DNA of 64,000 nucleotides from Capsicum annuum (Eukaryota; Streptophyta; Magnoliopsida; Solanales; Solanaceae): the NCBI RefSeq assembly GCF_002878395.1, contig NC_061114.1, forward strand, positions 163,725,884-163,789,883. The letters are read 5' to 3'. A program made the translations under genes and the position numbers. Positions 24,030 through 54,829 of this stretch are shown piece by piece (the stretch's first letter is position 1; each line of letters opens with the position of its first letter). The notes beneath the pieces were generated by a model. It did no database searches and had not been told where the DNA came from. It saw only the letters and a program-made list of their open reading frames with translations.

Positions 24030-25080
24030 CCAACAGATTATCTCTCTAGTACAATATATTAACCATCTGATGCAACAAATTTGACATATGATGCAACATA
24101 TCAACCACCTGATGCACCAGAGGAACCATCAGATTACAATTCTGATGCAATAAATTAATTATCTGATGCAACAGATTTAGCATATGATGCAACAATTTAA
24201 CTATCTGATGCAACAAATTAACCATATGTTGCAACAGATTAGGCATCGGATAAAAAATCTGATTTAACTGATTAACAATCTGATGCAACGAAAGAATCAT
24301 CAAATTAATGATCTGATGCAACAGATGAACCTCCTGTTGGATAAAATCCTATCAGCTTTTCCAACAGGACATGTCCAAGACTTTATTTTTCCAACTACCA
24401 TTCATCTGCCTCGATAAACGACCCTATGTTGGAAAAATCTAAACAATATTAACCATTGATCACTCATGTTTTGCAACAGATGTGTAACCTGTTGCACAAA
24501 CCATTCATCTTTGCACAAACCATTCATCTTTCTCAATGGATGAGTGATATGTTTTGTATAGTCGCAACAAATTACTCAGTCGTTGCTGCAGGTTAGTTAA
24601 CTGTGCCGACCGATCACTCATATATTACAACAGATGTGTGATTTGTTGCATAGATCATTCATCTTTCTTAACAGATGAGTGATATGTTTTGTATTATCGC
24701 AATAAACTACTCAACTATTGCTACAGGTTATTTAACTATTCTAACAGATTACTCATATGTTGCAATAGATGATATTACAAAAGATATGTGATCTGCCGCA
24801 CAGACCATTCATTTTTCTCAATAGATGAGTGATATGTTTTGTATTTTTATAACAGATTACTCATCTATTGCAACAGGTTATTTAACTGTTCCAACAGATC
24901 ACTCATATATTACAACAATGTGTGATCTGTTGCATAGACCATTCATCTGTCTTAAAAGATGAGTAATACATTTTGTTTTGTTGCAACAGGTTGCCCATCC
25001 GCTGCAACAGGTTTGTTATATGCTGCAACAAATATACTACCTGGTGCAATAGATAAGTGATCTGTTGGAACTGTTATTTT
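24030..25080. repeat. Array of degenerate ATCTGTTGCAACAGAT-type palindromes (block 1)
   Basis: Dense, irregularly spaced copies of half-motifs such as CTGATGCAACA, TGTTGCAACAGAT and CAACAGATGAGTGATATG. From 24470 a longer ~120-bp phrase recurs (ACTCATATGTTGCAACAGAT...CATTCATCTTTCTCAATGGATGAGTGATATGTT) at about 24470, 24600, 24730 and 24890. It lies between the leader splice donor (23697) and the start codon of gene A (25176), i.e. probably in a 5' UTR intron. Confidence 0.85.
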
Positions 25081-25175
25081 ACTGTTTTGCTTGCTAGATT
25101 TACTGTTATCTATTTTTAACAATGCATTAATCAACTATGATATATTTTTTTATGTTCCTGTTAATTTTATAAAAT

Positions 25176-27035
25176 ATGGCTCCCAAAAGAACAGAAATTG
25201 AACCAAGTCCAAGTAAAGGAATAAGTGAAGCAATTAGGCTATATCCTCCACTCTATGAGCTTCCTTTACAAGTGTTATCTCAATCAGGAGTAGAATATGA
25301 TGAACACGGGGAGGAGAAATATTTCAAAAGAGATGATCCAAATGCTAATAGCCCTTCCACCGAAGAGTTATTCAAAACCTTCAGAATTGATCATTATCCT
25401 GTAAGAATGCAGTGCGATAGTGCCACAGATTGAACGGGTTTCGTGGTTAAGTCAGCCATGAAAAAATCTTTCAACGCCTTCAAAAAAATATTTCGAGAAT
25501 AAAAATTAAATGCTTATTTCAGGGATAGCTGCTTTGGGAAGTATCTTGATTTGCTGGAGGACAACAATGCTCGTTTCCAAATGAAAGTGATATATGAACT
25601 TCTCAAGCGTAGGTTTATGTATGAAAACAAAGATAAGGTGGATGAAGTATGGATAAATTATGTGGCATGCTTGTTTGTTTTGATTGGAAGGAGTTTTCCA
25701 TAGTTACTGGACTAAAATGTTATCCTCCTTCTCAAGTTATACCTATTCTAACCCCAAAAAAGTACCCCGCACACCCAAAAAAGACAAAGACAAGTCGTGT
25801 GATCATGATGACCTGGTGTCCATTGTTGGTCCAAGCTTTAAAAACAAAAATTTGATAGAAACGTTGAAATGTAAAGGACTTTCAAAGAAGCATAGACAGT
25901 CATTGTGCTTGGTTTGGTTTATACATAATATTCTTTGGACGAGAGACGTTAATAACAACATAAGCGTTGGTTTAATAAAGCTCTCCGAGGATCTTGAGGC
26001 ATTTAACAGCTATCCTTGGGGTTATGAAAGCTTCAAAATGACTGTCAAATATTTGTTGACTCCGTTAGTGCCAAAGACAGTCAACATATATGGCTTTTCA
26101 TGGGCTTTCATGGTAAATGTTTCTTTCTTTTATTATGATATCGTTTATTTTTTTACTCAATAATGGTTTTGATTTATTGGCGTTATTTTATAGGCTTAAA
26201 CGTTTGAAGCCGTTTCTTATTTGAGACAACAAGTAAACTACCAGGAAGAAGTTTCCTGTCCAAGAATCTTGAGATGGTTGTCGGCGAAAACTGATAAAAA
26301 TGCAAAATTTCTTAATCTCTTCAACCCCCGAAGGATGCAGTAAGTATAATTATAATTAAGTTTTTATTTTAATTAATGATTTTTTTGAATGATCTAATCA
26401 TCATTCTAATGTATGTAATGATTTATGTTAGATTGTGCATCTGTCGCTAATTCCGACCAATCGAGAATTGAAGATTCCATTTTTTCTTACTTTATGGTCT
26501 GTGCAAACTTTATCGGACCCTAAGGTCATCGACAGAATAAAAATAAAATTATTTAGAGCAACAATCATTAGTGGAAAAATAATTTTTGGAGGGTGAACTT
26601 GTTGTTGATGATCTCAGTGGTGATGGAGCTGTTGGAGGTAGTAGTGGTGCTGCTGTTGGTACTAATGATGCTCCTCTTACAGTATTTAAAATAAACCATT
26701 ATGAGTATGATCATACTAGTTACATAGATTTTGTCTCTCCCAGCGAATGTTTTGCATGCAAATGTCAAGACTGCAGGGGGAAACATGATGTAGTGATTAA
26801 TGTTATTAATACATTAACTGCTTCTGTAAAGGAATTGACATCTAAGAGGGGTGTTATTCCATCAAAGAGAATTTTATTTCCATAAACTCCATTAGAGATT
26901 AAGGCTAAGAGGATAAGGAAAGTGATTTCCAAGGCATTATCAAGCATCCATAAAAGCAAAATTGCAACTCCTCTGTTCGTGTGTTGCACTGAGCAATGTG
27001 CAATGTCCGAAGGAGAGCAACACGAGCTAAAAAAG
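25176..27035 (+). pseudogene. Ulp1-type gene A: DUF1985 domain protein, 3' part missing, broken
   Basis: Starts [15 protein letters not shown] at 25176. A DUF1985-like region follows, pieced from several frames: CFGKYLDLLEDNNARFQMKV, DWKEFSIVTGLKCYPPSQ (25680-25735), SLCLVWFIHNILWTRDVNNN and EAFNSYPWGYESFKMTVKYL (25990-26050), ending in WAF. Introns match gene B: donor at 26113 after WAFM, acceptor before 26194, donor at 26341. A Gly/Ser-rich part with a CKCQDC cluster (26750-26775) comes next, and the last exon ends at a donor at 27036. In plants DUF1985 sits N-terminal to a Ulp1 (SUMO/NEDD-type) cysteine protease domain, often carried by Mutator-like elements. No Ulp1 domain follows here. 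Stops (25431, 26194-26199) and frameshifts show decay. Confidence 0.7.
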
Positions 27036-27059
27036 GTGAATATATATGTCTTCTAACTA

Positions 27060-27999
27060 ACAAACAGACACATTTCTGTTTCAACAGATGATACATTTGC
27101 TGAAAATTATCAAACAGATATATACATCTGTTGCAACAGCTGACTAACTTATTGCACCAGATAAAGTATCTGTTGCGATATATGTCTTGTATATTTTAGC
27201 AAATCAAACAGCTCTTCGTACCTCTTTTATTTATACCAACAGATGACCTATCTGCTGCAATAGATGGTCATATGTTGCAACAGATGGTTCATCCGTTGAA
27301 AATTATCATATAGGTCTTTCTCATGTAGAAATTTGTCCCAATAGTTGATTCATTATTGCAACAGAAATATAATTTGTTTGGGATAATTTAAAATAGGAGG
27401 AAGACCTGTTTGATTTGCTGGAACAGATGAGTTATCCTTTTCCATTTTGTTGTATCTCCGTGATTAACATTGACCAATTCTGGCTTTCCGTGTGGATGTA
27501 AAAGCTACTGCTGAACAACATTGACAATATGCTACTCTTTTTATGAAAATACGGAGAACAGAAAGTGCAGAAATCGTACGTAAGCGACAATAAAGATCCA
27601 CGATGAGCAAAGCCGAATTCTATAACACCGGATAAAGAACAACTTATCCATATTGAGTAGATCTTTATAGCTTGAGTCTGTCAAAGTAATAACCTCATCC
27701 CTCCCTAGGAATCATCCTCTACATCAATATTTAAATTGTTGATGTATTTGTTGAGATTTGTACCAATAATAATTTTTTTATATTTTATTTATTCATTGAT
27801 TTATTTCAGCTAATTCTTAAGGCTTCGATTTATTTTATTTTATCTATGAATTTTATTTTTTCCTTAGATTTGAACTTGTTAATTGAAATGGAATACTAGA
27901 TTCAAATATTGCAACTGGTAATGTATCTGTTGCAACAGATGGTACATCTATTGGAAAATATCGAACAGATTTAGACATATGCTGCAATAGGTAGGTAAT
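27060..27999. repeat. Palindrome-type array (block 2), in a 3' intron of gene A
   Basis: CATCTGTTGCAACAG-like units at about 27080-27450 and 27900-27990, including one exact ATCTGTTGCAACAGAT at 27925-27940. Between them, 27480-27700 contains a possible short coding remnant (VDVKATAEQH-like, about 27496-27525) that resembles the linker of plant Ulp1-family proteins. The block stops where the Ogre-like LTR begins at 28000. Confidence 0.75.
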
Positions 28000-30900
28000 T
28001 ATTGACACCCAATTTTGCCTCGCCCCTTTTTCTCTAATTATTTTTTACCGATGCTCCTTGACCCTAAATAAATTATAAAAATTAAATATAAATAAAATTC
28101 ATATTTTTATATCTATTTCTACTAATATTTAAGTAAAATGAGATTTATTTATTTATTTATCATAATATAAAATATTTCAATCAAATATGATTAAATATTT
28201 TAGCAAATAAAATAAAATAAAAATATCTTTAGGTAATTACATTTGCATTCTTTCTAATGTTATTTCACGGCGATATTATATATATATTTTTATATATTCT
28301 TATTTTTTTACACACACATATATTTTGGTTAATGAAAAAAAAATATATTAGACGTTTATATTAAATTGTTTATATAATTTATATATATTAGACTAAAATA
28401 ATTTTAGGATAACAGGGAGCATTGACAAAACTAATTTCAGTAGAAAAAAAGTATTCAAGCCAACAGTAACACAAATTTGATATTATTACTCAAGACCTAT
28501 TATTTCTCATAAATTCTAGTCACACAAGTCCAAAATCAGTTCGAAACTCGGACCAACTCCCACGTCATAATCACCCATCACACGCTGCAACGTCATACAA
28601 AAACACACCAAATTTTATTCCCATAAACTCGAATGAATCTAATCCGTGGATAACTTTTCAATTCGAGGATTTCGAAATTTTAGCAGTTATCGCTATATAT
28701 ATATATATAATTTATTTTATTTAATTATTTATTTATTTTTGTAGTTATTTTCTTCCCTCCTTTTCTATAAAATTGAGTCCAGACCCTTCCGATCGAAGAC
28801 TGAACGGACAAAAATAACCACATTTTAAATCAACTCTTAATTAAATTTATATATATTTATATTTATATATATATATATACACATATATATTCAAATATGT
28901 TTTATTTATTTATTTTAGAATGTCTATTTTAATCCGTCTGATCAAACGATCGGACGGCCTACGATTGAGTTACCATAATCAGCCTATTAGTAGGCTTTTC
29001 CCACACCCGATAAATTAAATACGGTCCTCTTACACAAATGGAAGCGATCGCCTGCTAAAGTAGTAATATGTCTCTTCTCCTTTCTTATCTGCCGTCACGC
29101 GTACACAGTCCCTATCTTCCCTATCAAAATAGTACTCTTTCTCCTCTCTACTTCTCTCTTCTCCTTCTCCCTTTCCTACATGACGCTCCCAAATCCTAAA
29201 CCCCACCGACAAACCTCAACTACCCCCTGCGCAACCATCCTCCATACCTCAAAAATCCCCTCAAAAATCCACAAACAGTGAAATAGACTCAATTTCAAGG
29301 AAAAGAACTCAAAATCTTTCAATTAATCATGATAGCTGTGGAAAAATGGGGTTTGAATTTGAAAGTATATTTTTTTTCTTAAAGTTGTAGTTTCAAATTC
29401 GGACTTTTGAAGTCCGGATTTCACCTATAAAAAGGGGTGTTGTCAACCTCAGAAGGGGAGGGGAAAAATTGAAAAGAAATCTTGAAAATTGGGAAAGGGG
29501 CTTAAAAAAAATCAAAAACAAAGACAAGAAGAGGAGAAGAAACAATTGAAGAAAAAGGAAAACAGACAACAAGTGAAAAGCAGAGAGAATTAGGGGGAGA
29601 AGAAAACAAAGAGATTGAAAAACTTGAGAAAAAGGGCTTTAAAAATCGAACAGAGGGAAGAAAAGAATCGAGAAAAAAGGGCAAAGTTTCGTGAAAAAGT
29701 CAGAATTCTACAGTTGAGTTCGTCGGCCGAAAAACTCTCGATGTTGAAACCTCACATTTGCATCCCCAACATTGGTAAAAGGAAGTATGTTGATTTGGAC
29801 TATTTTAGTGCTTCTTTGACCGACATTTAATCTGTGGATATTGAATTGATTTCTCTTGATGCTCATGACAGTAAAGTTCTTTCGTAACAACTAAAGAGAT
29901 GAATAATGGTAGCATGTCTTCCCCTGTGACCACAAATATAATTGTATGAATGCTCTATGTTCATGTTTTATACTCTATTCCATGCCTTATTTATTTATTT
30001 GAACTTAAAAAAGTATCTAATCTTTATCTTTTCTTTTACATGTACATTTAGGAGTTGGAGTTTCGTAACGGAACTCGTCTTTGTCCCAAGCATCGGTTCA
30101 ACCACATTAGGATCGCAGAGCCTCGGAGTACCGCAAATTAGGAGCCTAAGCTCCTAAATCGAGTTTATTATTCTTTATCGCCTTTCGATTTAATTTATGT
30201 TGAGTTTTATTTATGTTTTAATTACTAAATCTTGTTGTTAATTTTACTTACGATAACTTTATTTGATTATTGAATCTGTGTAGCTTTGTTCTTCATTGGT
30301 CATCTTAGAAGTAACTTTAGCGTATAGGTTTTCACAAATCACATGACTGTTGCTAAAATACATATCTTATCATGCTTGGGTAATTCTTTTCGCCAATATG
30401 TCTAAATAAAGTTAACAGGGGAACCACCACGTTTCGCTTAAAATACAACAAAAAAATAAAATTTTCAAAACTAATAGGAAAAAAATCACTAAATTTATGT
30501 TTTTTTTTTAAAATGGTTCACCTACTAATTTTAACTTATTTTTTCTAATAAATAATTCTAATATTTTGCACTACATTTTATTCTTTTTTTTTTTTTAATA
30601 TTATTCGAGTTTTCAAGATAGAAATGCGAGGTATATATATTCATCTGCTACCACGTGCAAGGTAAATTATTTTATATACTACCATGATAATTTTTCATTA
30701 TTATCTCCAATATTGCTATTATTATCGTTATTATCTATACCGCAATTATCTCCACTATCTTAATTATTATTATGATGATGATGATGAGGGTTTAAACAAT
30801 TTCACAGGTTTTGCATTATATTATTATTATTATTAATTTAAACCCATTCTTAATCTTTCATATATTTTTTCACATACTCTTAATATACATTTCGCAAATA

Positions 30901-31457
30901 AATTTTCACGTCATGAAAAATATATTTGTTTATATTCTAGTCGTACACTTAAACTTCACATGTGTGAAATAGAATTGTAAGATTTTGCACCTTCTTATGT
31001 GTGTAAATTACATTACTACCCTTTTCGTATTTAAAAAATACTCATACATATATTTTGTGATAATTATATTACTTTCTTGTACATGATAGCATCATGTTTA
31101 TTATACCTTAAATTTTCTTCTAAGAAATAAATAAAAAATAATGACAAATTTTTTCTTATCACTATTTTAAGCAAATAGCAGAATAATTTTTTTTCTAAAC
31201 TAAGTGTAAGGACTATCTTCGGATAGGCTCTGAGGGTGCCTAACGCCTTCACCTCGAGTAACCAAAATCCTTACTCAGAATCTCAAAATGTACTCGATAG
31301 ACTAAACCAGAGTTTTTCTGATAAAAAAATAGTTTTTCCTAATTTTCTTAAAAAGTTAGGTGGCGACTCTAAAAAATAATTTTTAAAACCCAAGAGTCAC
31401 GACACACGTCACCATATGTTGTGTGTTGTTTCGACCGGTTCGAAATAGGGCGCGACA
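28000..31457 (+). repeat. 5' LTR of the Ogre-like element (about 3.46 kb)
   Basis: Runs from the GACACCCAATTTTGCCT start to ...GCGCGACA before the primer-binding site. It contains a likely core promoter, TATAAAAA at 29426-29433 (matching TATAAAAG at 42521-42528 in the other LTR), followed by a purine-rich leader (29455-29700). Short frames inside it (for example 29615-29830) are not conserved in the other LTR and I do not call them genes. TA-rich microsatellites occur near 28270, 28695 and 28865. Confidence 0.85.
29426..29433 (+). promoter_or_regulatory. TATA box in 5' LTR
   Basis: CCTATAAAAAGGGG, conserved in position and context in both LTRs, directly upstream of a purine-rich transcribed-type leader. 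Confidence 0.6.
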
Positions 31458-31460
31458 GAA

Positions 31461-31478
31461 TGGTGACTTTGCTGGGGA
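31461..31478 (+). other. Primer-binding site, tRNA-Arg type
   Basis: TGGTGACTTTGCTGGGGA starts three bases after the LTR end. The consensus complementary to plant tRNA-Arg 3' ends in Ogre/Tat elements is TGGCGACTCCGCTGGGGA; three C-to-T changes are seen here. Confidence 0.75.
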
Positions 31479-32031
31479 ATAATGAACTTAGGTTTTAACC
31501 TTAACATGCTTAGTTTAGGATTTTTATGCTTTATTATTTTGTTTGCTTTACGTATCTTTATATCATGCTCTGTGTGAAAGGACGCAATCCAAATCCAAAC
31601 TTGGATTCCTTATTTGTTTGAACAACACTACTTGTTACTGCTTTATCACTTGTATTTTTCCTATCGAGTCTTTGGCCGTACACAATTCACACACTGTAAT
31701 TCACGCGGGGGGTGTCTTACACTCCCATAAACCTTCGTTGGATTCCTTAGTTTCAAAGTTGGCGCAATTAGGTTAGTGTAACCTCTCGCAGCTATTTAAT
31801 CCCACTCTCAAACATTTAGGGAAAGATCTTACTCTAGTAATAAGTCATATTGCATACACCTTAGGCGAGACGGTCCAAGACATCGTCATCGCAATTAGGA
31901 AACCACCCTTTTGTCAAAGGTTACAAACATGTCGACATATTTTTATGTGAAGATTGATGTTAACGGTGTAAACTAAAACACGGAATGGATTTGAGATAAA
32001 CGACTTACTATACCCTCTTTTTTTCCTCCAG

Positions 32032-33640
32032 ATGAATATCAATCCAAATTTGCCAAACATCCAAATAGTCATCTCTGCCCCTGATAGCCTACAGAATTAG
32101 TGGAGAAACATTCGTGTGGCACTTGGTGTGGAGGTTCAGGAATATTTGGGGGCTCTATTATCGTTAATGAAGGTTCGAGCCAATAAGACCCTCATTACAT
32201 TATTAACGGAGTTCTGGGACCCAAACACAGTGACCTTCAGATTTTTGGACTTCGAGATCACCCCTACTCTAAGAAAATTAATAGCTTTGCTGAGTTGCCG
32301 CTTCAAGGGAGGCTGCCGGTACTCCCATCACCTGTAAGGAAGGAGGATTTCTTGAGGCTTTTAGGATTGGATATATTTTCTTCCCTAAGGAATGTTAAGG
32401 ATGGAAAGGTAAAGCTATATTGCCTTTTTAGAAGATTCGGCCGTGTGGAGAGTTATGACGAGCACAAGAATGAGTTTGTTTATACCCGCAGACAATGGGT
32501 GCATATGCGACCAGGGTCTTCGTTTTGGCATTTTTTGGAATCATGATTTTCCTAATGAAACGACAATGTGTTGACATTAATATTCTGCCAGTAGTAATGA
32601 ATGTATCTGCAGATCCACAGAGGTTCACATTAGTGCACATGATACTTGCAGAGGTATTCTGATCATTATCTGCCTGCTCTAGGGGATATGACTTCTTTGG
32701 GGGTTGCAACCTGCTGTTACAGATTTGGGTGATAGAACACTTCTATCACCGCCTTCCATAGATGGATTACACGATCGATGCACACAGCCAAATTCAAAGT
32801 CACGAGGATCGCCTAAGGTATTGGATCGTGCCAACTGGAGAAGAGGAGTGGCACGAGTTTTTAACCAATCTTACCGGGGATTCCATCCAATGGAAATATT
32901 CTTGGATGGGGATATTTGCCTTCATTAGAACTTGTCATCTGTACTTCATTAAGCTGATTGGGCTATGTGGCATCCAGCCATATGCGCCTCTGCGGGTCCT
33001 TAGATAATTTGGCATCATCCAGGATATCCCGCTTTGGTCTACCATGGTACTTCATGAAGACAGTTATGACGCTTTGATTCCAACGGCATGAGTGATGAAC
33101 CTCCAGATGGAGTGAGATTACATAATTATGCTATAGATTGAAGGCGAGAAATGGTGCACACCAGAATATTATATTTGGTGCGCCACTGTTAGTCACATAG
33201 CTAGACTGAGCGAAGATGGTTTTCAAGGACTCACAGACCCTCGGTGGGTTGAATGGGTTAAGAAGGAAGTGTTTACGCCCATGTATAATCAGATAATCCC
33301 AGGTTCTATTGATTACCTAATTTCGGTGATCGAGGAGGATCCAGAGGAAGACCCAGAGGAGGAAAAAAAGAAGATCCCAAAAAGGACCCTGAAGAGGACC
33401 CAGAGGAAGAACCCAAATAATACCCTGAGGAAAGCACAAAATGGATGAAAGAAGACCCTCAGGAAGTCTCAAAAATAGGTTTCAATATGATCTTGAAGAC
33501 GGAGGGGTGATGGATGTAGACTTGGCACCCGATCATGACCTAGAGGGATCCCAAGATCTTATTTTGACGAGGGCAGACATGAGGATGATGATGCCACTTG
33601 GCCTTAACTTCCTTTCTTGTTCTACTGTCTATATTCCCTA
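32032..33640 (+). pseudogene. Ogre-like ORF1 (plant mobile domain-like), broken
   Basis: ATG at 32032 opens MNINPNLPNIQI; after a TAG the frame continues VALGVEVQEYLGALLSL, LLTEFWDPNTVTFRFLDFEI and TPTLRKLIALL. A W.. F..L.F...PT..E...L pattern is typical of the plant mobile domain found in Ogre ORF1 and in host MAIN-like proteins. Later frames hold MDYTIDAHSQIQSH and EEEWHEFLTNLTGDSIQWKY, then an acidic EDPEE repeat (33340-33430). The reading frame changes at least four times. The role of ORF1 in Ogre elements is unknown. Confidence 0.65.
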
Positions 33641-34013
33641 AAAGAGCCATATGGCCAACTTCATTGTAAGCCCTTGGGACCATCCTTGTACTTTATTTTT
33701 AAGCTGACTTTGATCTATTTTGATGTAATCTTTGAAGCACCATTGTTTAATAAAAGTCGTGTTTGTCCTCAAATCCAAATGTGTTTAAATAGACCGTTTA
33801 TCATCAAATTGATTGTAGCGTAGGCCTATCTCTACCAAAAAGAGGCTCTATATTAGGACGCATTTGGATGTCGCCAACTTGGCGTATATATGTGTTACTT
33901 ACTTGTTACATTTTTGTTATCTCTCAAACTAACACGGTTTCCCTTTTTTTTTCTTTTCTTTCTTTTGTTTATTGTTTATTGTTTTCCCCTCCAAAATAAA
34001 AAAAAGTTGATTT

Positions 34014-35560: not shown

Positions 35561-35869
35561 AGGATAACTGGTTTGTTTTATCCAACCTCTTAAAACTTCA
35601 ATGGTAACAAGTGATGCGCCTATCACTCAGGAAACACAAAAGACTGATATAGCTTAAAGAATCAGATTGAGTCTCTGATAAGGAGGGGTATAATGAAATG
35701 CACCACCGCAGCTCCAAATATAAACAATAACCCTTTGATAAATCATGGAAATTGAGAAATCAATATGATTACTCTAGGGGAGGAGTATGATTTGGAAGAA
35801 ACTATTGTGCCCACATGGAATACATAAGAAATCGCCACTGCATCCCCATTACAACCATTTATCACAGTT

Positions 35870-43629: not shown

Positions 43630-43900
43630 CAAAATATCAAACAGATTTAGAAATACGTTATAAAATTTAGGTCATCTATTGAAAATTATCAAATAGGTCT
43701 TTCCACTGTTGCAACAGATTAGACTTAGATTAGATAGAAATAACATCAGCATAATGCAACAGATGACCAACCTATTGCAACAGATAAACTATCTGCCAGA
43801 ACAGATAGAATATATTTTATAACAGATTGACGATCTATTGCATTATAAAAAACTGAACTTTCATCAGAAAAAAATTAGTCACTTCATGTACATATAATTT
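43630..43900. repeat. Palindrome-type array (block 3), right side of the Ogre-like element
   Basis: AAATATCAAACAGATTTAGA, TGTTGCAACAGATTAG, GCAACAGATGACCAACC and similar units. The first 45 bp resemble the left flank of the retrotransposon (27955-27999). Confidence 0.75.
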
Positions 43901-44644
43901 AAAATAAAGTGAAGTGTGACTTGAAATAAAAAATTATTATTTCACAGGATCTTCTATATACACAGGCTCTAAGCGTCCAGTTAGTACCCCATAAGCCCAG
44001 ACCTCTTGCAGGTTTGCCACAACGTTATCACACAGAAAGGTCATTGGCTCGGCCATTTTTGTGCCGGGTCAACAAGCATTCAATGTGTGCAAGAGCGTGC
44101 GAGCCGCACGCGTAACCGGTTTCATTTTTTGGAAGGGTCATGCCCTTGTTTCAACCTTCAAAATACTATGATTTCTTCATCTACACTTTCTTTGGTAAAT
44201 GATTCATCAGTTTACTCTCCCTCAACAAGATGGGCAACAACTCCATCAGTGGCTGCACAAGGAGAAAAAGATCGACCTCCTCGATGGTAGGTTCATTGCA
44301 GTCATAAACTTTGATCTTTCCATCCCCGAGTAGTATCTCAACAGCCCGATAATATATACCGTTCATGCTAATGACTGCAATAACCCTCTTTGCCTCGGTA
44401 CAGTTCTTGCTGTGTGGATTTGGCCTCTCCCCTCTAATATATTTTATCATTTTTCTTCATTCAAGTCCAACATAGAAACTAAGAAATCAAGTCTCGCACT
44501 ATAAGATGATGCATTAGAATTGAGTTGATCATACTTATCCTTGAGATTCTTACAAAAATTGAGGTCCATTATCCTATCAGCAGCGTCATAAGCTTCCGGG
44601 TACGTTAATGGCCTTTTTCTCATGAGGCAAAGAATTTTGTCAAC

Positions 44645-44905
44645 ATGTTGTGATATAAGAAGTTAATTTTTAAATAGGTTAGTAATTGTAAAAATGGTCC
44701 ATTTGTTATATAGGGTTCTCGGAATAAATAATCCAATAGAACTTATGCAATAGATGGATAGTAAGTTACAATAGAACTACTACTAGTTGCACCAGAATAC
44801 CTAGCTGTTGTAATAGATTTCACATCTGTTGCGTAGCTTCTTCTTCATGGGGTAGATTATAAGACTACATTAGGAAAATTAAATGGGGGGGGGGGGGGGG
44901 AAGAG
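44645..44905. repeat. Palindrome-type motifs and a G-run within an intron of gene B
   Basis: Sparse TGTTGTAATAGATTTCACATCTGTTGC-like units (44740-44835), followed by a run of about 17 G at 44885-44901. Lies between gene B coding pieces. Confidence 0.55.
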
Positions 44906-45639
44906 AGGCTTAGGGTAATCTAGTGCGCCTAGATTGACATTCTTGGCCTGTCGTAGATCCCTCTTTTCTTTGGCTCCAAGTTTTGCGTATATGTCTACCT
45001 TCTTAAATGGCCCCTAAACTTCAACAACTTTTGAAGAGAGAGGAGTTGCAATTATTTTTTATTTCCGACCGGAGAGTACATCGATTATTGCTCTTTTCTT
45101 CCTCCTAACCAACACTGTAGGAACGTATAGATCTCTCACCTTCTTGGATGGTATGACTCCCTTCTTGGATTTGAATTCCTCGATAGCTTTAAAGATAGCC
45201 TCTACTTTTTTAAAGTGTTTATCCTAGCTTTCCTTGCACTTTTCGCATTCGCAACAAGAACACGAGGGTGAAGAGGGGTGAGAGGGACCTATGTAAGGGT
45301 GAAAAGGGGTGTTTTCAAACATATTTATTTTTTCTTGAGCATCAACATGCTAATCATCATGAGTGGTAGCAGCATCAGTATACCTTCCAGCAACACCAAC
45401 AACTCCACCAGAAGAAGCACCCGAATCTGCCTTAGTAGGTTGGTCATGAAGAGCCTCAACATTAGGCTGACCTTGCATAATTATTTTTTTATGGTGGTTG
45501 CTCCAGCCAATTCCTTCTTTATTAACTCCACCGTTGGGTCTGCTATAGTATCAACATGACCTAGAGTAATATAAGAAGTCATCAATGACTCTTCCTCGGT
45601 AAGCATGATCCATGGATGCACAACCTAGAAAAAAAGGCA

Positions 45640-46225
45640 GATACATTTAAATCATATAATATAATAATTTTCACAGTTGGGTTACATTTTAACACGGTCA
45701 ACTTCTACAACAGATTAATAATATGTTGCATCAGATTACCCATCTGTTGTATAATTTGCAGTAAATGGTTAAAATTTGTTTGAGTCGGGTTCAAAGAACC
45801 AGAGAAACACATGGATAATCTAACGTAAAATATCAATCATCTGTCGCAACAGATTACCAATCTATTGCACCAGTTGCACAAGACGAGTAATCTATTTGGT
45901 TACATGTTATGCAACAGATGATTTGTATGTCGCAATATATTAACAATACGTTACATTAGATTACCCATTTATTGCATAATTTGCAGTAGATGGTTAATGT
46001 TAGGAGTCGGGTTCAGAGAACCGAAGAACCAGATAGGTAATTTGATGCAAGTTATCAATAATCTATCGTAATAGATTATCCATCTGTTGAACTGATTGGC
46101 ACAGGACGGGTAATCTATCGCAACAGATGTCCCATATGGTGCATCAGATATAACATCTATTGCACCAGATATAACATTTGCCCAATATCTTTTATTTTAT
46201 TGAGTAAACTTATTTTACTTGAAGA
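45640..46225. repeat. Palindrome-type array (block 4) within an intron of gene B
   Basis: Units such as CATCTGTCGCAACAGATTACC (45837), CAACAGATGATTTG and GGTGCATCAGATATAACATC (46137). Two longer sub-blocks (45660-45800 and 45930-46030) share the phrase GTCGGGTTCAGAGAACC. They lie between the exon ending in DDA (near 46230) and the next gene B exon (to about 45625). Confidence 0.75.
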
Positions 46226-47544
46226 AGACGTACTGCATCATCCGGAGGGTTAAAGAGATCAGCCTTCTTAATTATTGGTTTGTTCTTTGTAGCTAACCAC
46301 CTAAACATCCTTGGATGGGAAAACTTATCTGGGTAATCCATTACCTGCTTTCAGAGGGGTGGAATGACTTCAAATGCCCAAGCCTAAAAAATGTAAACAG
46401 GAAGCAAGCAAAAAAAGTCATAATAACTATATTCAATATAAATTAATGGTGAGTAAAATAAAAATAATGATTAATTTTACCACGAATGCCCAAGGAAAGC
46501 CGAATAATGTGGTCGTTCCTGAGGATAGCTTTGTCAGTAAATATTGGACAGTCAAGTAGAAATTGTCATATCCCCAGGGATAATTGTTGAATTTATCAAA
46601 ATCCTCAGCACTCGCCAACAAATCATCTTCTATGACCTTGTTGACGTATCTTGCCAATATAACCAAATGGGCAAATCAAAATAAGCACAATTTCTCCCTG
46701 TACTTCTTTGGTATGGTTTTATCCATGAGACCTGTCTACAAATTCGATACTTTGTAGCCATATCGAGCAATGTCAAGCAACCTATCAATTTTTTTCTTGA
46801 ATTTTCGTACCTTGGATCTTTTGTGCGGTATTTTCTTGGAGATAGGTGATTCTTCTGGACGATGGCATCTCAAGCTTATCACTATGGCAAACTCTTGTAA
46901 GCGAAAACAAATTGGCATGCCACTGTAGTTGATTCAGATTTCATCCATCTTTTTGTCTCCCTCATTCGGATCTACATCATCCCCCACGTTCTTGATCCTG
47001 TGCTTGAGAAGATCATAAACCATCCTCATATTAAAATGGGTAGGGGACTCAGGTAGCTCAAAAAAGCATCCAAAGCAGCTCTTCTTAAAAAGTCAGTCTA
47101 TCGTCCTTCATAATTTTCCTAAAATAAATAAATTTACTCCCCATCTGACATTTAAGTACAATTTCACCAGTTAGTTCTTCTGCTTTTTGGTCATTTATCA
47201 GCATCACAATTTGAAACTTGTCAATACTGAAAAGTTTTGACAGGATCATACTGGGATGTCGATATTAATTCACACCCCATTGGTGGTCCATTATCATCAT
47301 ATTAATGATTATCCTCTTTCTCTTTCTCACTCTCTAATTCCTCCTCTTTCTCACTTTTATTTTCTTTATCACCTTGTACAGACCCTTGTGTACCTCCCTC
47401 AACATTGTTTTTATATCTCTCCTCAGCTTTATTTTTTCCTGACTGAGATTATTCAGGAAGCTCCTCTGAATCCCTCTGTACTGTAGCCTTTTTTGGGTGG
47501 TCAGACATTGCTCCAGTTTTACTTTCTTTTCTTTTGGGAGACAT

Positions 47545-48320
47545 GTTTTACCTACAAACAAAAGAAAAACAAAAATTACATTAAAATTGATGTATGCATA
47601 AATTTTAAAAAATACATTACAAACACCAATAATAACGATACACCAACAGCCACCACAAACATAACCAACCAATGCCACTACAAACACCACCACCCAATGC
47701 TACCAACAACCACCACTAGTGCCACCATGACGACGACGACGGCCACCACCACCACCACCACAAACATCATCCAACAATACCATGATAGTTAACGAAATAT
47801 TGCTATAGAAACTAGGGTTTTCTCGAGTTCTTCCTATGATTTTACCATTAAAACTCAAAATTTTAAACCCATTCTCGAAGATAATACAACTAAAAGTTTT
47901 ATTTTTTATCATTAACTTAAAATCCCTTATTTTTTAGAAAAAAAAACAAATATAAAACTCTTCTCGAACTCAGTTACCTGTGAAGATAGAGAAAATTGCT
48001 GATACAAGCAAGAATGAAGTCGAAAATAACATCTATGTGGTCGAAAATAGGAAGAAAATCAATTTATTATGAAGGGTAGAGCCATTTATTGAGTAGTTGT
48101 TGTTTGTACTGTATAATTGAGTGAGAAAGAGCGAGAAAAGAGTAAAAACTCGAGATTTGAAATGATGAAAGGTTTTTTCTCACAAATTGATGATTTGTAC
48201 GAGTTGGTTTGTATTTTGAAAAAGAATGACAAGTTTTGAAAATGTAAATTTGGTCCAAATTGATCTTAATTATTTTTTAATATTGTAAAAGATATGCATA
48301 ATTGTTAACCCTCTCATCAT
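47545..48320 (-). promoter_or_regulatory. Leader and upstream region of gene B
   Basis: On the - strand, ATTTTCAAAACTTGTCATTC...TTCAAAATACAAACCAACTC (about 48250-48205) resembles the start of the gene A leader, and CTTCACAG|GTAACTG (about 47978) looks like its splice donor. A CACCAC/CAACAAC-rich simple stretch (47640-47790) fills the presumed leader intron. Confidence 0.45.
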
Positions 48321-50360
48321 GCAATTTCCAAAAGACTCAATTGAAGTTGTAGTTGATCCTATAAACTCTTACCCCTGGTCCTAGATTTAATCAATTTAGG
48401 TATATGAACTCAATTGAAATTATATAAAAACAAATGTTCAACCTATTGTATAAGCTATGCATCTTTGTAAATTATCAAATAGATTAAGTAATCTGTTGCG
48501 ATAGATTACCTATCTGTTGTAAATTATCAAATGGATTGTCACATGTCGCAACAGATTATCCATCTGTTGTAAATTATCAAATAGGCACTATCATCTGTTG
48601 TAGTTGACCCTATGAGAACTCACCCCTAGTCTTAGATTAATTAATTAAGGTATTAGTTGAACATATGAGGTAATAAGAATCGATTCAGCTCAGAGTGATC
48701 GATCAACGACTCTGGTCAGGAGGAACGCAATATCGTCTTATATGCAATTGCCAAAAGACTCAATTGAAGTTGTAGTCGACCCTACAAAAACTCACCCCTG
48801 GTCCTAGATTAATCAATTAAGGTATTAGTCTAACATATGAAATCAATTGAAATTGTATAAAAACAAATATTCAACCTGTTGCAACAAATGTCTTTTCTAT
48901 TAGATTTAATCAAATAGATTAAGTTATCTGTTGAAACATATTATGCATCTGTTGTAAATTATCAAGCAGATTAAGTCATATGTTGTGATAGATTACCTAT
49001 CTATTGTAAATTATTAAATGGATTGAGTCATATGTCGTAATAGATTACCCATATGTTATAAATTATCAAATAGGAGCTGCCATTTGTTGTATTTGACCCT
49101 ATGAGAACTCACCCCTGGTCCTAGATTAACCAATTAAGGTATTAGTCTAAAATATAAAGTACTAAGAATTGGTTCAGCTCAGAGTGATCGATTGACGACT
49201 CTAGTTGGGGGAACACAATACCGTCTCAACAACAATAAACCCAGTGTATTCCCACATTGTGAGGTCTGGGGAGGGTAAGATATACGCAGTCCATACCACT
49301 ACCTCCGGAGAAGTAGCTAAACGCAATACCATCTCATCATACAATTTCTGAAAAACTCAATTAAAGTTGTAGTTGACCCTATGAAAACTCACCCCTAGTC
49401 CTAGATTAATCAATTAAGGCATTAATTGAACATATGAGGTAGTAAAATTTGGTTCAGCTCAAAGTGATCGATCGACGACTCTGGCTGGGAGGAACGCAAT
49501 ACCATCTCATATGCAATTACCAAAAGACTCAATTGAAGTTGTAGTTGACCCTATGACAACTTACCCAGGTCCTAGATTAATCAATTGAGATATTAGTCTA
49601 ACATATGAAATCAATTAAAATTATATAAAAATAAATGTTCAACCTGTTGCAACAGATGTCTTTTTTGTTGGATTTAATCAAACAGATTAAGTTATATGTT
49701 GCAACATATTATGCATCTGTTATAAATTATCAAACATATTATGCATCTATTGTAGTTGACCCTATGAGAACTCACCCTTGGTCCTAGATTAATCAATTAA
49801 GGTATTAGTCTAAATATGAAATCAATTGAAATTGTATAAAAATAAATATTCAACTTGTTGCAACGGATGTCTATTCTGTTGGATTTCATCGAACAGATTA
49901 AGTCATTTGTTGCAACAGATTACTTATCTGTTGTAGATAATCAAATAGATTATGTCATCTGTTGAGAAAGATTGCCCATCTATTGTAAATTATTAAATGG
50001 ATTGAGTCATATGTTGCAATAGATTACCTATTTATTGTAAATTATCAAATAGGCGCTGCCATCTATTGTAGTTGACACTATGAGAATTCACCCCTGGTCC
50101 TAGATTAATCAATTAAGGTATGAGTTGAACATATAAGGTAGTAAGAATCGGTTCAGCTCAGAGTGATCGATCGATGACTCTGATCGGGAGGAATGCAACA
50201 CCGTCTCATATACAATTGCCAAAAGACTCAATTGAAGTTGTAGTTAACCCAATGTGAACTCACCCCTAGTTTTAGATTAATCAATTAAGGTATTAGTCTA
50301 ATATATGAGGTAATAAAAATTGGTTCAGCTCAGAATAATCAATCAACGACTCTCAAAAAT
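48320..50360. repeat. Composite tandem array (block 5) with two alternating modules
   Basis: Module 1: CCAAAAGACTCAATTGAAG, TTGACCCTATGAGAACTCACC, CCTAGATTAATCAATTAAGG, found near 48328, 48748, 49338, 49513 and 50220, with partial copies at 48600, 49090, 49755 and 50070. Module 2: TGTTGCAACAGAT-type palindromes with TGTAAATTATCAAA spacers (48430-48600, 48870-49090, 49630-49750, 49850-50065). A linker with GGTTCAGCTCAGAGTGATCG and CGACTCTGG recurs at about 48682, 49171, 49450, 50150 and 50325. Spacing is irregular (about 175-700 bp), so this is a higher-order but shuffled array. Confidence 0.8.
49213..49336 (-). mobile_element. 92-bp RTE/SINE tail inserted in the array, with target duplication
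   Basis: Insert 49229-49320. Read on the - strand: GTAGTGGTATGGACTGCGTA ... CCCCAGACCTCACAATGTGG, GAATACACTGGGTTTATTGTTG, the same tail as the RTE LINEs at 13743 and 23200. Flanks ACACAATACCGTCTCA (49213-49228) and ACGCAATACCATCTCA (49321-49336) are a 16-bp duplication with two mismatches. Confidence 0.85.
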
Positions 50361-51230
50361 CTCCGGAGTAAGTAATCTTATCTGGTCTTTTCAATGTCAT
50401 CGTCTTCTCGTGCCTCTAAAAGTAAAAAATTATATTTAAAACCCATATCTAGAAGAATACTCTCTTCTCCAGCCGTAAAGTAAGACTCAAATCATCTATT
50501 GCTCTTCTTTATTCTCAATTCTCTTTTTTCCCTTTTTTCTCTTTTTTTCTCTCTTCTTTCGGATGAGGATCCTTTTGGATCTCAATCGATTAATATCTTT
50601 TCTCGACTGAACTGGATGTTCTGATCCCTTTACTTTTTTTATATTGCAGGTATGGTTCACTATTGCTCTTTTAATCTTGTCTTCTTCTTTGTATGTTATT
50701 AAAATTAGATATTTACATCTGTTGCTTTTAATGATTTACACATTACCAGTATTCTATTTATTGAGAAAATTGAAGGAAAAGTGAAGTCTTGAATGAATAA
50801 ACCATTGATTTTATATCTGTTGCAAAATGCCTCAGCAGTTGAACAGATGGGTAATCTATTGCATCAGATTGGTCGTCTGTTGATTCACTTAATTTTGTGT
50901 TACCCTTTTATACAGATGGAGCAACTGATTGAAGAAATCAAACAAGTAGCAAGACTGGTTTGATTTATTCTAATAGATGACCTATCTGTTGCAACATGTC
51001 ATCCATTTGTTGCAACAGATGCCTCATCGGCTGAGCAGATGGGTAATCAGTTGCATCAGATTGGTCATCTATTGATTCGCTCAAATTTGTGTTACCCTTT
51101 TGTAATGTTATTTTTGTTCTTCTCTTGTTTGACATCAAATGCATTTCTTTTATTTGTAGATAAAAAGAAAGTGAAATTGGATCTATTTTTGCCCGACTAG
51201 CATTAAAGGTTAGAGTAAAGATGGGTTCAG
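50361..51230 (+). repeat. MuDR-type gene leader with palindrome-type array (block 6)
   Basis: A CT-rich leader (50450-50640) ends at a likely splice donor TATTGCAG|GTATGG (about 50650). The following presumed intron contains CATCTGTTGCTTTT, TTGAACAGATGGGTAATC and ATTGCATCAGATTGGTC units, the last two recurring as near-duplicates at 50833-50905 and 51012-51085. Confidence 0.6.
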
Positions 51231-52685
51231 GAAAAGAAGCTGGTTGCAGATGGAACACTTCATATATGGGAGGTATGTATTACTAATCAACCTATTGTAA
51301 AAACACACATCCAGTACAATGATTTTGTGAATGTTTGTTCTTTACCTATTAGGCGTTAATTCTTCAAACAAGATATGACATTTTATAGTTAAGATTGTTA
51401 GGTTTGAACTGGTAAGGTTGAGAGACTAAGTAGGCGGTGTCGATACCCTGTTATGGATATGGTAGAGACAGATACTTCTAGTAGAGACCAAAGGGTTCCA
51501 AGATAGTGGTGTTGAACAATTGTGAAGCTACGTCGAAGATACCGAAGAGTTGTGTTTTGTATAGGATAGGCATCCAAGTATTCCAAAGATGGGTTCTTTG
51601 TTTCTTCACTTCAGCTTACTTTGGTTGTTGCATCAGGTATCTTGGAGAGAATATTCGAACCAACTATCACAATGAAAGGGTCGTGACCCTTTTTTATAGA
51701 GTAGCTAAAGCATATAGTAGAGAGGAATTTTTAGACCATTTCAATCAAATAATGAATGTGAATCCCAAGGTAGCAGAATTTCTCGTACGTGTCAGTTTCG
51801 AGAGATGGAGCCGAGCATTCTGTCCGGTAGATAGGTACATTCTTATCAATTTAATGTGTGAGTTACAAGTTTAGTATGATCTCGTACTAAGTGATTATGA
51901 TTCTTTTATATGGGTACAATATTATGACATCAAACATAGCTGAATCGATGAATTCATTATTTGGCGATGAAAGAGAATTTCCCATCAAGGCTATGTTTGA
52001 AAAATAAGCAAGAAGTATGGCCAATTTTTTAACGAAAGGCATGTGCAGTTCAAGTACTCAAAAAAACTGATTTATTCTCAAAATCGAAAAAATAATATCA
52101 ACGAATGTTAGTTTGGGGAATAGGTTATTATCTCATAAAATAGCAGATTACATATTCAGTATCACCGATCATGGTGATGTTGCCACGATCGATCTTCAAA
52201 CAAAATCTTGTACGTGCAGAGTTTTTGACTTGGACAAAACACCCTGTCCACATGCTATGGCAGTGCTTCGAGCTCAATACGGTCATATATATGGAGCTGA
52301 ATTTTACGAGAACTCCTCTCAATATTATTTGGTGGAAAAATATGAAATGTCATATAGTGGGCATATTACTTCGGTGCCTCCTGAAGAATCTTGGGTTGTT
52401 CCTGCAGAGCTTATGGGGAGATTAATACCTCCTCCATATATTGACCCAAGCACTATCAAACTCGAAAAAAAGCTATATAAGAGGAGGTGTGGAGTTGGAG
52501 AATCATTTTATCAAGAAGAAACAAGTACTCCGTATGTTAGCGCGCTAGCCATAAAAGAACTACATGCCCGGATCGTAATCCACAATGATCGTTGTAATTA
52601 CAAAAACTTGTGTTGTTGTTTATGGTGTTCTTTTATATATTTAAATCATTGTTACAAATATAATGTTATCATTTATTATATATAA
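51231..52685 (+). pseudogene. MuDR/MURA-type transposase (Mutator-like), C-terminal half with SWIM zinc finger, broken
   Basis: MULE transposases cut and paste DNA with a DDE core and end in a SWIM zinc finger. Recognisable pieces in order: DRHPSIPKMG (around the second catalytic Asp; about 51562), TNYHNERVVTLFYRVAKAYS with EEFLDHFNQIM (51660-51750), RWSRAFCPVDRY, MTSNIAESMNSLFGDEREFP (about 51925-51985), then an open frame (52113-52685) with HGDVATIDLQTKSCTCRVFD and TPCPHAMAVL, the CxC..CxH SWIM motif (about 52200-52262), and ESWVVPAELMGRLIPPPYID. The N-terminal part with the first Asp is not recognisable, and there are at least four frame changes. The last 190 codons are open. Confidence 0.85.
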
Positions 52686-52739
52686 AATATCTTTTTTAAT
52701 AAATTGTGCATCAATAAAATGAGGCAAAACATGAACTAA

Positions 52740-52950
52740 ACAATACAACAGACCATAAGTATTTTACACAAATTACCCATCTGTGTCAACAGATGGACAT
52801 TAGCTGCAGGAACACAACACAATTCTATAAAACTGGAATATTTTCCTCCAACAGATGATAAATCTATCACAATAGATGGATAATCTATTGACAAAAACCC
52901 AACCGATGACCAATCTATTCCAACACATGGTCCATCTGTTGAAAGAACTC
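52740..52950. repeat. Palindrome-type array (block 7) downstream of the transposase
   Basis: CATCTGTGTCAACAGATGGAC (52779), CCAACAGATGATAAATC, CACAATAGATGGATAATC and CCAACACATGGTCCATCTGTTG (52918-52940). Confidence 0.7.
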
Positions 52951-53760
52951 AAAAGCCAAAATTGCTATTGCTACTGGATTCAAAATTGCTCTTTACCTCC
53001 AATTGTCGATATGTTAACATGTATGTTTAGAAGAAGAAATAGACAAAATTAAAAATTGAATAAGAATTAAAAAGCCAAAGTCGACTAAAAATAAATTTTT
53101 TATTAAAAAAATAAAATACATTAGGTATAGATCCGATATAGAAAAATTAAAATACATACGCTAAAAGAAAAAACACATTCTAATTATTATTATTATCATC
53201 ATCATCATTAATGACAGACGGCCAATCAACTCGCAGCAGCAGCGCCCTCATCAGTTTCTGCATCTATTTGAACATTATTGCTCTCACGGCGACCAACTCC
53301 CTCTGCAGGTCATTACCCTGCCTCTAAAGTTCCCGTACTGTATCATAAAGAATAGCAATATCCCAAACAGGATCAGTCATATCTAAAACACGCATGAATT
53401 GACAAATGCAAAGAAAGGAGTTCAAATATAATACAACGTATACTATAAACTGGAAGATTTACACCAGGAAAAAACTTACCGCAACAATAAAGGAATATGC
53501 TATTTAAAGAGAAGTGGTTGAAGATGTCACACGTAAAGAAAAAATGCAAGAAATAAATAAATTTTAGCAGAATGAAGATTAAGGAGGGACCTATTTATAA
53601 AGGTTGTATCTGGATGTATAAGGAAAAAAGGCACGTCTGTTAAGCTCCATTATATTAATTATATTCAAATTGGTAGTATTTTGTTTTCTGTGATAAGTCG
53701 CGACTTTTTCTTTTACATTAATCCATCTCACCTTTTCAAAATGGTTTTGAGACTTGATAA
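52951..53760. other. AT-rich MULE flank without recognised gene
   Basis: Contains a short (ATT/ATC)n stretch (about 53180-53210) and no coding frame with recognisable homology. Confidence 0.5.
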
Positions 53761-53769
53761 TAGCGGTTA

Positions 53770-54530
53770 TTATTGAGCTGTTACAACAGATCGTCCATCT
53801 GTCACAATAGATTTAACATCTGTTGCAACAGATTGTCTGTATGTGCAATAGATGAGACATCTGTTGCAACATATGTATTAATTACTGCGATAGCTGGACC
53901 ATCTTTTAGAGATATTTTGATTTCTTCTAACAGCTGATTCATCTGTTGCGAGTTATTTTGATTTCTTCTAACAGCTGATTCATCAGTTACAACAGATGGA
54001 GAATTTGATTCATCAGTTGTTTTGAATGTGTTAGATAAAAAGTCACCACTACCTCTTTTTTAATAGTCATCACATGCGTGCAGATAAATAAATAATGTCT
54101 AGTCTGTCGCAACAGATTACCTACTGTTACAACATATGGATTATCTGTTACGATAGATGGACCATATGTTGGACGAGATGTTTTGATTTCTTCCAACAAC
54201 TGATTCATCAGTTGTAACAGATGGAGATTTTAGTTCATCAATGGTTTTGAATGTGTTAGATAAAAAGTCACGACTCTTTACCTCTTTTTTAATAGTCATC
54301 ATATGCGTGTAAATGAAAAAATAATTTCTGGTCTGTCACAATAGATTTACAATTTATTGCAACATATAGATTATCTGTTGTAATAGATGGACCATATATT
54401 GAAGGAGATGTTTTTATTTCTTCCAATAGTTGATTCATCAGTTGCAATAGATGGAGATTTTGATTCATCAGCTGTTTTGAATGTGTTAAGATAAAAAAGT
54501 CATGACTCTTCACACCTCTTTTTTAATAGT
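53770..54530. repeat. Palindrome-type array (block 8) with three ~200-bp near-repeats
   Basis: Includes exact ATCTGTTGCAACAGAT at 53818-53833. A longer unit (TTGATTTCTTCCAACA.CTGATTCATCAGTTG, then GTTTTGAATGTGTTAGATAAAAAGTC, CCTCTTTTTTAATAGTCATC and GCGTGCAGAT) occurs at about 53930-54090, 54182-54330 and 54410-54560. Confidence 0.8.
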
Positions 54531-54820: not shown

Positions 54821-54829
54821 GATGCTCAT

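Follow-up and report, generated by a model that had tools for sequence, protein, structure and literature searches.

We found that a 16-bp site of dyad symmetry, spaced in step with the DNA helix, is densely repeated in the non-coding parts of a Mutator-like (MULE) element that encodes DUF1985 genes, within a 64,000-nucleotide stretch of pepper (Capsicum) DNA that we refer to as the window. With a probability of roughly 60%, and by analogy with a known plant system, the arrays of this site would serve as landing platforms for an anti-silencing protein of the DUF1985 type encoded by the element itself, as a palindromic variant of the VANC mechanism. In Arabidopsis, the anti-silencing protein of the element VANDAL21 (Hiun) is VANC21, and VANC, a DUF1985 protein, is described as binding motifs that are repeated in tandem, in introns as well as upstream regions, and as removing DNA methylation (Hosaka 2017, PMC5735166).

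Layout of the arrays and genes

The district that carries the arrays is a decayed Mutator-like element in the Capsicum genome, interrupted by a Gypsy retrotransposon. It contains two DUF1985 genes, here called A and B, one of them with a weak Ulp1-like stretch, and a gene for a SWIM-type transposase. Its features are as follows, with sites counted at up to 4 mismatches.

24065..25075: array ahead of gene A (leader intron or promoter side); 25 sites
25173..27053, plus strand: gene A, a DUF1985 gene; coding 25173-26340 and 26423-27053, with frame breaks
27074..27428: array in intron of gene A; 8 sites
27499..27660, plus strand: last exon of gene A; tblastn 27502-27657 and by-eye comparison with relatives
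27925..27992: array 3' of gene A, adjoining the Gypsy insertion; 3 sites
27994..43630, plus strand: Gypsy LTR retrotransposon, inserted, outside the array system; LTRs at about 27994-30533 and 41316-43629
43704..43827: array flanked by the 3' ends of genes A and B; 4 sites
43960..47545, minus strand: gene B, a DUF1985 gene with a weak Ulp1-like (C48) 3' part; limits from ORFs, by eye
44740..44818: array in presumed intron of gene B; 2 sites
45700..46170: array in intron of gene B; 9 sites
48491..50024: arrays in the interval from gene B to the transposase gene; 15 sites in three blocks
50815..51061: array ahead of the transposase gene (leader intron or promoter side); 5 sites
51160..52685, plus strand: decayed MURA-like gene for a MULE transposase, with a SWIM zinc finger; limits set by eye
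52779..52949: array following the transposase gene; 4 sites
53776..54452: right-hand array, ahead of the second transposase-like fragment; 15 sites, partly in a 230-bp repeat
54570..55400, plus strand: second transposase-like fragment; homologue in related locus L009

Within the window, 60 sites lie within 3 mismatches of ATCTGTTGCAACAGAT, spanning positions 24065-54452, compared with a mean of 0.43 and a maximum of 3 in 100 shuffled controls, which confirms the dense, multi-block motif described in a first-pass annotation of the same DNA. At up to 4 mismatches the number rises to 93, of which 90 fall into 12 multi-site blocks totalling 3.8 kb and 3 stand alone (32709, 58105 and 59660). Exons were indeed free of the motif, as that annotation had also claimed: none of the 90 district sites lies in the 6,467 bp set as coding, a set drawn by hand from profile matches, tblastn and ORFs (ORF-based only for the transposase and for the 3' part and N-terminal part of gene B), against a density of 8.9 sites per kb elsewhere in the district. 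Gene-model matches at 24513-24593, 24657-24728 and 24801-24878, in the array before gene A, were read as array-derived peptides and excluded from this coding set. Half-sites occurred at 0.46 and 0.62 per kb in coding sequence, close to the 0.38 and 0.61 per kb in the remaining window. The earlier placement of the blocks held for the array at 27074-27428, in an intron of gene A between a conserved exon end and an exon starting at about 27499 (ends by eye), and for the introns of gene B, one of them presumed. It had to be revised in that the Gypsy insertion, from 27994 to about 43630, splits the district, so that the array blocks belong to two pieces of it, and the orientation of gene B was corrected to the minus strand. 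The Gypsy LTRs are ~90% identical, with a K2P distance of 0.083 over 1547 aligned positions that cover part of the LTRs.

Gene A matched the DUF1985 profile PF09331 at E=6.6e-14 (52.5 bits, cut-off 35.1), and the Ulp1 (C48) part is mostly missing from its last exon. The coding stretches of both genes were traced by tblastn with 120 Capsicum relatives, which in gene B matched 44990-45630, 46216-46410 and 46478-47243; the two PF09331 pieces of gene B (E=1.4e-5 and 0.0015) and its Peptidase_C48 match (E=0.22) all scored below cut-off. Among the relatives, P0028, P0033 and P0035 exceeded the DUF1985 cut-off, and P0033 and P0035 the C48 cut-off as well. A search of solved structures (P0033, alignment A2) returned weak Ulp1-family matches to SENP1 (E=0.96) and SENP2 (E=0.13), along with others apparently due to chance, while the predicted structure of relative P0052, from a 39-row Capsicum alignment, had a mean pLDDT of 44, too poor for a search for a DNA-binding fold, and an NCBIfam scan of three proteins gave no match. 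In the transposase gene, ORF 52071-52685 encodes the SWIM finger (PF04434, E=2.6e-8), and the MULE DDE domain was absent from the scanned ORF 51485-51874. Within the second transposase-like fragment, 54608-54804 aligns with 51259-51453 at 74% identity.

The arrays belong to the element, as the annotation had supposed: the related loci L004, L008 and L009 carry such arrays at corresponding places, L008 having retained them with the coding part of gene A gone, and under a strict word list, array-derived peptides turn up in 7 of the 120 related gene models from Capsicum. When searched against the protein collection, the array-derived peptide of a window ORF had no match, and that of P0050 (residues 262-338) matched only P0050 itself.

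The annotation had proposed transposase binding sites; CACTA elements and certain other DNA transposons of plants have such sites as subterminal repeats, which act in excision. Arrays on either outer flank of the district (24065-25075 and 53776-54452) and beside transposase sequences agree with that proposal, but the majority of blocks are internal, within introns of the DUF1985 genes or in intergenic positions, and we consider it improbable. As element ends were looked for in the district and not found, a terminal position of the arrays is unsupported. VANDAL elements are marked by terminal inverted repeats that are degenerate or lacking and by a 9-bp target duplication; the only inverted pair that the district contains (23216-23296 with 48203-48281, 75%) does not lie at two ends.

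Symmetry and helical spacing of the site

The repeat unit is a 21-bp tandem made up of a 16-bp palindrome and a 5-bp spacer. TRF periods in the arrays are 19-22, 41-42, 50-52, 63 bp and longer, with 21-bp units nested in larger repeats of ~96 and 135 bp before gene A and 50-52-bp units nested in longer repeats in the arrays at 48491..50024. With the window and ten other loci pooled, 171 of the 180 distances between adjacent sites in the 17-75 bp range fell within 2.6 bp of a whole multiple of 10.5 bp, and the ten other loci on their own gave 107 of 114 near these values. Counting each distance once per locus left 60 of 69 in phase, where 54% are expected (p=7e-9), and odd half-turn distances outnumbered off-phase distances by 25 to 9 (p=4e-5). 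VANC motifs are reported to show helical periodicity (Sasaki 2022, EMBO J).

A passive tandem repeat, generated by slippage or unequal crossing-over and amplified with the element, would leave the palindrome and the 21-bp period without function. Such an origin could explain the nested TRF units of many lengths, the confinement of the arrays to non-coding DNA, and the finding that a recognised element gene lies within 3 kb at only five of ten sampled motif loci. For some of the copies a satellite independent of MULEs may also apply, given the five sampled loci with no such gene within 3 kb. A pure 21-bp ladder would, however, not be expected to hold its phase at odd half-turns (30-34, 51-52 and 72-74 bp), and the motif recurs in introns of both related genes as well as in intergenic DNA. 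Furthermore, in neighbouring units, which were not used in picking the sites, conservation of the core exceeds that of the spacer (0.31-0.88 bits at offsets 21-30 versus 0.06-0.33 bits at offsets 16-20). We therefore regard a passive origin as unlikely.

Conservation per position matches between the two arms (r=0.81, p=0.015; 145 sites in the ten other loci), and arm-to-arm compensatory changes show no excess, with 6 seen versus 9.3 expected in the window and 16 versus 16.4 at the 145 sites of the ten other loci. Because the arms are about equally conserved and compensatory changes are not in excess, a protein dimer on DNA fits better than an RNA hairpin. For the same lack of compensatory changes above chance, the selection for RNA fold-back that the annotation had suggested was rejected, and we judge any RNA-level role, in which array transcripts would fold back and either supply small-RNA silencing or withstand it, or would take part in splicing, to be very improbable. 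Array RNA from 24052-24340 does fold at -74.3 kcal/mol, compared with a shuffle mean of -46.35 kcal/mol (z -7.4), in line with such a role, but sites also lie between genes, and a scan of 23900-55500 gave no Rfam match at gathering score. Spacers in the window favour one strand (39 of 60 sites), and, although gene B lies on the opposite strand, those in its introns (6 of 8 sites) lean in the same direction along the DNA as the spacers ahead of gene A (13 of 16), an argument against an RNA role that is weak because blocks elsewhere are mixed.

Strong folding of array RNA is expected from any repeated palindrome. As for the 16-bp core, its left arm looks weaker in the window (p=0.002 for 76 profile-picked sites; p=0.03 for the 60 sites within 3 mismatches), with block polarity mixed, and this polarity was not reproduced in the ten other loci (p=0.17).

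Genome-wide distribution and proposed role

The pepper genome contains 68,145 sites at up to 1 mismatch, compared with 10 for a reversed control. The motif was for the most part not equally common away from MULEs: 20 random 10-kb windows, which amount to ~189 kb once Ns are left out, contained no site within 3 mismatches. Ten other top-scoring MULE loci likewise had none at this threshold, and element genes were recognised at five of the ten sampled motif loci. The distant DUF1985 relative at L039 has no motif sites, and the three DUF1985 matches among the best 150 that fall in the first 27.7 Mb of C1 lie at least 424 kb from the exact sites listed. A two-unit pattern gave 0 matches in viral contigs, and a literature search with the motif letters returned matches only under unrelated titles.

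Dyad-symmetric sites are typical of dimeric host factors. The symmetry of the site and the position of arrays before genes would suit a host transcription factor or insulator protein whose sites the element collected as enhancers, but the rarity of the site elsewhere, in the random windows and at the other MULE loci, leaves this with only the slimmest of chances.

Of the roles that the annotation had put forward, one in chromatin appears to fit best; layout and genes resemble those of VANDAL elements with their VANC motifs. Under the VANC-like reading, the reader protein, encoded by gene A or gene B where copies are intact, would bind each 16-bp site as a dimer, and several dimers may align along one face of the DNA. 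The bound protein would strip DNA methylation from the element and could do so in trans on internally deleted copies that keep their arrays. We count L008, with its arrays and without the coding part of gene A, in favour of this reading, and the decay of the genes in the window and the DUF1985 genes with no motif nearby against it. Also against it count the five sampled motif loci with no element gene within 3 kb, the negative outcome for a DDE domain in the scanned transposase ORF and for element ends, and the short, non-palindromic form of the VANC21 and VANC6 motifs. More tentatively, and as a doubtful extension of the same analogy, a DUF1985-Ulp1 dimer may read the site and line up along one face of the DNA at 10.5-bp steps. 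By protecting its own and internally deleted copies, such a palindromic code might have helped the family to multiply until the pepper genome, at 3.2 Gb, held near-exact sites by the tens of thousands. If the VANC-like reading is true, transposons would use sequence-specific anti-silencing well outside Arabidopsis, in a genus of crop plants whose genome is large, the symmetric target would point to a dimeric reader, and it would become testable whether such systems help transposons to enlarge genomes. Which part of a DUF1985 protein reads DNA is an open point in Hosaka 2017 (PMC5735166), and the 16-bp site together with the many relatives would allow this to be tested.

Comparison with known systems

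The pepper element shares its host family with the MULE-Solanaceae and MULE-Capsicum groups, whose descriptions (PMC6446971) report a SWIM transposase and a 9-bp target duplication for MULE-Solanaceae_1 and, where they treat these groups, make no mention of internal motif arrays. KI-MULE or Kaonashi (KIU) elements, also described from grapevine, melon and rice, carry an Ulp1 domain in a gene that runs opposite to the transposase gene, as gene B does, and, according to a 2026 review, KIU-carrying Vandals likewise recognise non-coding motifs (PMC13317346, PMC2528002). Where they treat these elements, the two papers give no motif sequence for comparison. Unlike in KI-MULEs as described there, the pepper district has two DUF1985 genes in opposite orientation, and gene B matches Ulp1 only below cut-off.

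The closest comparison is with the VANDAL elements of Hosaka 2017 (PMC5735166), the main text of which does not mention Ulp1. The VANC21 and VANC6 motifs described there are 8-9 bp long and non-palindromic, and that of VANC21 is YAGTATTAY (9 bp, one orientation), whereas the pepper site is a 16-bp palindrome with a core that lacks polarity; we do not regard a single orientation as a defining trait of such systems. The VANC6 motifs AGTTGTCC and AGTTGTAC have only GTTG in common with the pepper half-site consensus, possibly by chance. VANDAL6 and VANC6 provide a precedent for a related protein that has a tandem motif of its own outside coding DNA (PMC5735166). In VANDAL21, tandem repeats of the motif lie in the introns of VANB and VANC and upstream of VANA (PMC5735166), and the pepper district is likewise a MULE-like element with a DUF1985 gene, in which a short motif is densely repeated in tandem, mainly in non-coding DNA, both within introns of a pair of accessory genes and ahead of the transposase gene.

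Palindrome arrays in the Mutator-like district

With 3 mismatches allowed, the palindrome ATCTGTTGCAACAGAT had 60 matches in the window, against a mean of 0.43 and a largest count of 3 in 100 shuffles, and all 60 sites lay within 24065-54452, bearing out the first-pass annotation, which had described a dense, degenerate palindrome in the Mutator-like (MULE) district. Twelve window sites carried at most 1 mismatch. At up to 4 mismatches, the window held 93 sites, 90 of them in 12 multi-site blocks of the district (3.8 kb in total) and three lone (32709, 58105 and 59660). The repeat unit of ~21 bp comprises the palindrome and a variable 5-bp spacer.

Features of the district
25173-26340, 26423-27053 and about 27499-27660 (coding), plus strand: gene A, DUF1985 (E=6.6e-14)
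minus strand: gene B, with matches that all miss the cut-off: pieces of DUF1985 (E=1.4e-5 and 0.0015) and weakly Ulp1-like sequence (E=0.22)
27994 to about 43630: Gypsy element, LTRs about 90% identical
51160-52685: decayed MULE-type transposase gene, marked by a SWIM finger (E=2.6e-8)
54570-55400: second transposase-like piece

The gene A protein, whose Ulp1 part is mostly lost, had 936 matches, all from Capsicum among the 120 listed, which points to a pepper genome, and gene B is overlapped by matches of Capsicum relatives. An inverted 75% match between 23216-23296 and 48203-48281 is perhaps an upstream region common to both genes. The Gypsy LTRs diverge by a K2P of 0.083 over 1547 positions (part of the LTRs), giving an age of ~3-6 million years at substitution rates of 1.3e-8 and 6.5e-9.

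Arrays lie around gene A (before the gene, within one intron and at its 3' side), between genes A and B, within two introns of gene B, on both sides of the transposase gene as well as between it and gene B, and before the second transposase piece. The coding sequence, 6,467 bp by our own delimitation, which omits 24513-24593, 24657-24728 and 24801-24878 (in the array before gene A, with gene-model matches overlapping all three), held 0 of the 90 district sites, as against 8.9 per kb in the rest of the district; for this set, the earlier statement that exons are free of the motif holds.

Elsewhere in the window, two LINE-type copies (12522-13746 and 21981-23189) are about 93% identical, the second stopping just left of the district, and a second Gypsy-like element (56108-61504, minus-strand ORFs) has direct repeats at 56108-56494 and 61118-61504 with 94.6% identity. 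AAA-ATPase-like ORF pieces (GPPGCGKT) at 3120-3590 and 15065-15508, which we take to resemble PEX1, probably belong to a host gene whose introns carry repeats.

Genome-wide distribution and a likely derivative copy

Throughout the 3.21-Gb genome, in which the window spans C4:163725884-163789883, the pattern occurred 68,145 times with at most 1 mismatch, versus 10 times when read backwards. No site at up to 3 mismatches occurred in the first twenty of 40 random 10-kb windows drawn (C1-C12, 1-150 Mb; Ns make up ~11 kb of the 200 kb), nor any such site at the ten top-scoring MULE-domain loci (150 scored of 7,406 candidates). The motif is thus not shared by MULEs at large, and the comparison with unrelated sequence came out mostly in favour of the first-pass annotation. 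Six of the random windows had some tblastn match to a DUF1985-model protein; in five there were one or two, best to P0070 (which has a non-DUF1985 family, too, among its precomputed domains) or P0074, while the sixth, L039, had 91 matches, the best at 29% identity, and lacked the motif.

Ten motif loci (3 kb each, 4-22 sites) were taken at the exact sites that come first along C1, a non-random sample; they amount to about eight places, as L007 and L008 are 8 kb apart and L001 and L002 4.7 kb. DUF1985/Ulp1 matches occurred at four (L003, L004, L008 and L010), L009 carries the second transposase piece, and L001, L002, L005, L006 and L007 showed no recognised gene within their 3 kb. DUF1985 itself is a very large family (18,147 first-look candidates, 150 scored). 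The opening 27.7 Mb of C1 contain three of the 150 scored matches, all at least 424 kb from any listed exact site, so DUF1985 alone does not predict the motif; such genes are expected if every clade owns its motif, and would equally be seen if the link were loose.

The reverse strand of L008 (G000:C1:5842962-5845977, G000 being the genome) aligns in order to window segments 23631-24845, 27602-27999 and 43632-43890 at 83, 82 and 77% identity. The gene A coding part and the Gypsy insertion are absent and the arrays are retained (19 sites). L008 is likely a non-autonomous derivative and, as a single case, has the look expected of an array-dependent one.

At four related loci with coding matches, 3 of 36 sites fell within tblastn-covered stretches. 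Two are in L008, where this locus matches the window array 24598-24979, so the "coding" is array-derived peptide; the third, in L004, lies beyond the exon end, within an intron, as judged by eye from the sequence. By a strict word list, array-derived peptides sit in 7 of 120 relatives' gene models (P0011, P0050, P0055, P0077, P0086, P0087 and P0092), in P0011 directly ahead of MAPKRKE. P0050 additionally bears PF03478 and is apparently a fusion with another gene, and several DUF1985 models are labelled glycerol-3-phosphate acyltransferase, apparently wrongly.

Site symmetry and helical spacing

The ten motif loci supplied 145 sites, 122 of them distinct, at a limit of 4 mismatches. In these, per-position conservation of the two arms agreed (r=0.81, p=0.015) and the arms were equally good (p=0.17). 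In the window, the left arm was weaker (p=0.002 for 76 profile-picked sites; p=0.03 for the unbiased 60), and by their spacers 39 of 60 sites lean to one strand, with blocks mixed. Compensatory changes showed no excess over chance, either in the ten loci (16 vs 16.4, 145 sites) or in the window (6 vs 9.3, 76 profile-picked sites). An RNA stem under selection should yield such an excess, whereas a symmetric protein-DNA contact need not, and the RNA fold-back role suggested earlier is accordingly disfavoured.

Across the window and the ten loci, 171 of 180 neighbour distances of 17-75 bp lay within 2.6 bp of a 10.5-bp multiple; with each distance counted once per locus, 60 of 69 were in phase versus 54% expected. 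Odd half-turns (30-34, 51-52, 72-74, also 29) accounted for 25 distances, and 9 were off phase. The ten loci by themselves had 107 of 114 in phase. As repeats within one locus are partly dependent, p-values for the spacing serve as guides only. For unique window distances, the phase was weak up to 160 bp (p=0.03) and clearer up to 70 bp (p=0.005); such weakening is expected if phase held only among near neighbours. The main rival reading, that the arrays are a passive repeat, we regard as unlikely. Counting most clearly against it are the in-phase spacing at odd half-turns and a core kept constant next to a spacer that varies more freely.

A proposed anti-silencing system and comparable known systems

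Direct observation covers the symmetry of the site, its spacing in helical phase, its confinement to non-coding DNA, the presence of DUF1985 genes within the element that carries the arrays, and a huge copy number. We propose, at a probability of roughly 0.6, that the arrays are targets of an element-encoded anti-silencing system. The element's DUF1985 protein would bind the site as a dimer, and dimers would load cooperatively along a single DNA face; methylation would be removed locally, the effect spreading across the element, and deletion derivatives might be served in trans.

According to Hosaka 2017 (PMC5735166), VANC21 is a DUF1985 protein that binds YAGTATTAY and causes methylation loss, YAGTATTAY forms tandem arrays in VANB and VANC introns and upstream of VANA, and the VANC6 motif is AGTTGTCC/AC. 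Sasaki 2023 (PMC10398659) shows that RNA-directed methylation hits the same non-coding parts. A 2026 review (PMC13317346) states that Ulp1-bearing Vandals (KIU) follow the VANC pattern among themselves, also recognising motifs in non-coding DNA. The pepper element's palindrome, absent core polarity and copy number are not described in the portions of these three papers compared here. In gene content and layout, the district is similar to the VANDAL/VANC kind.
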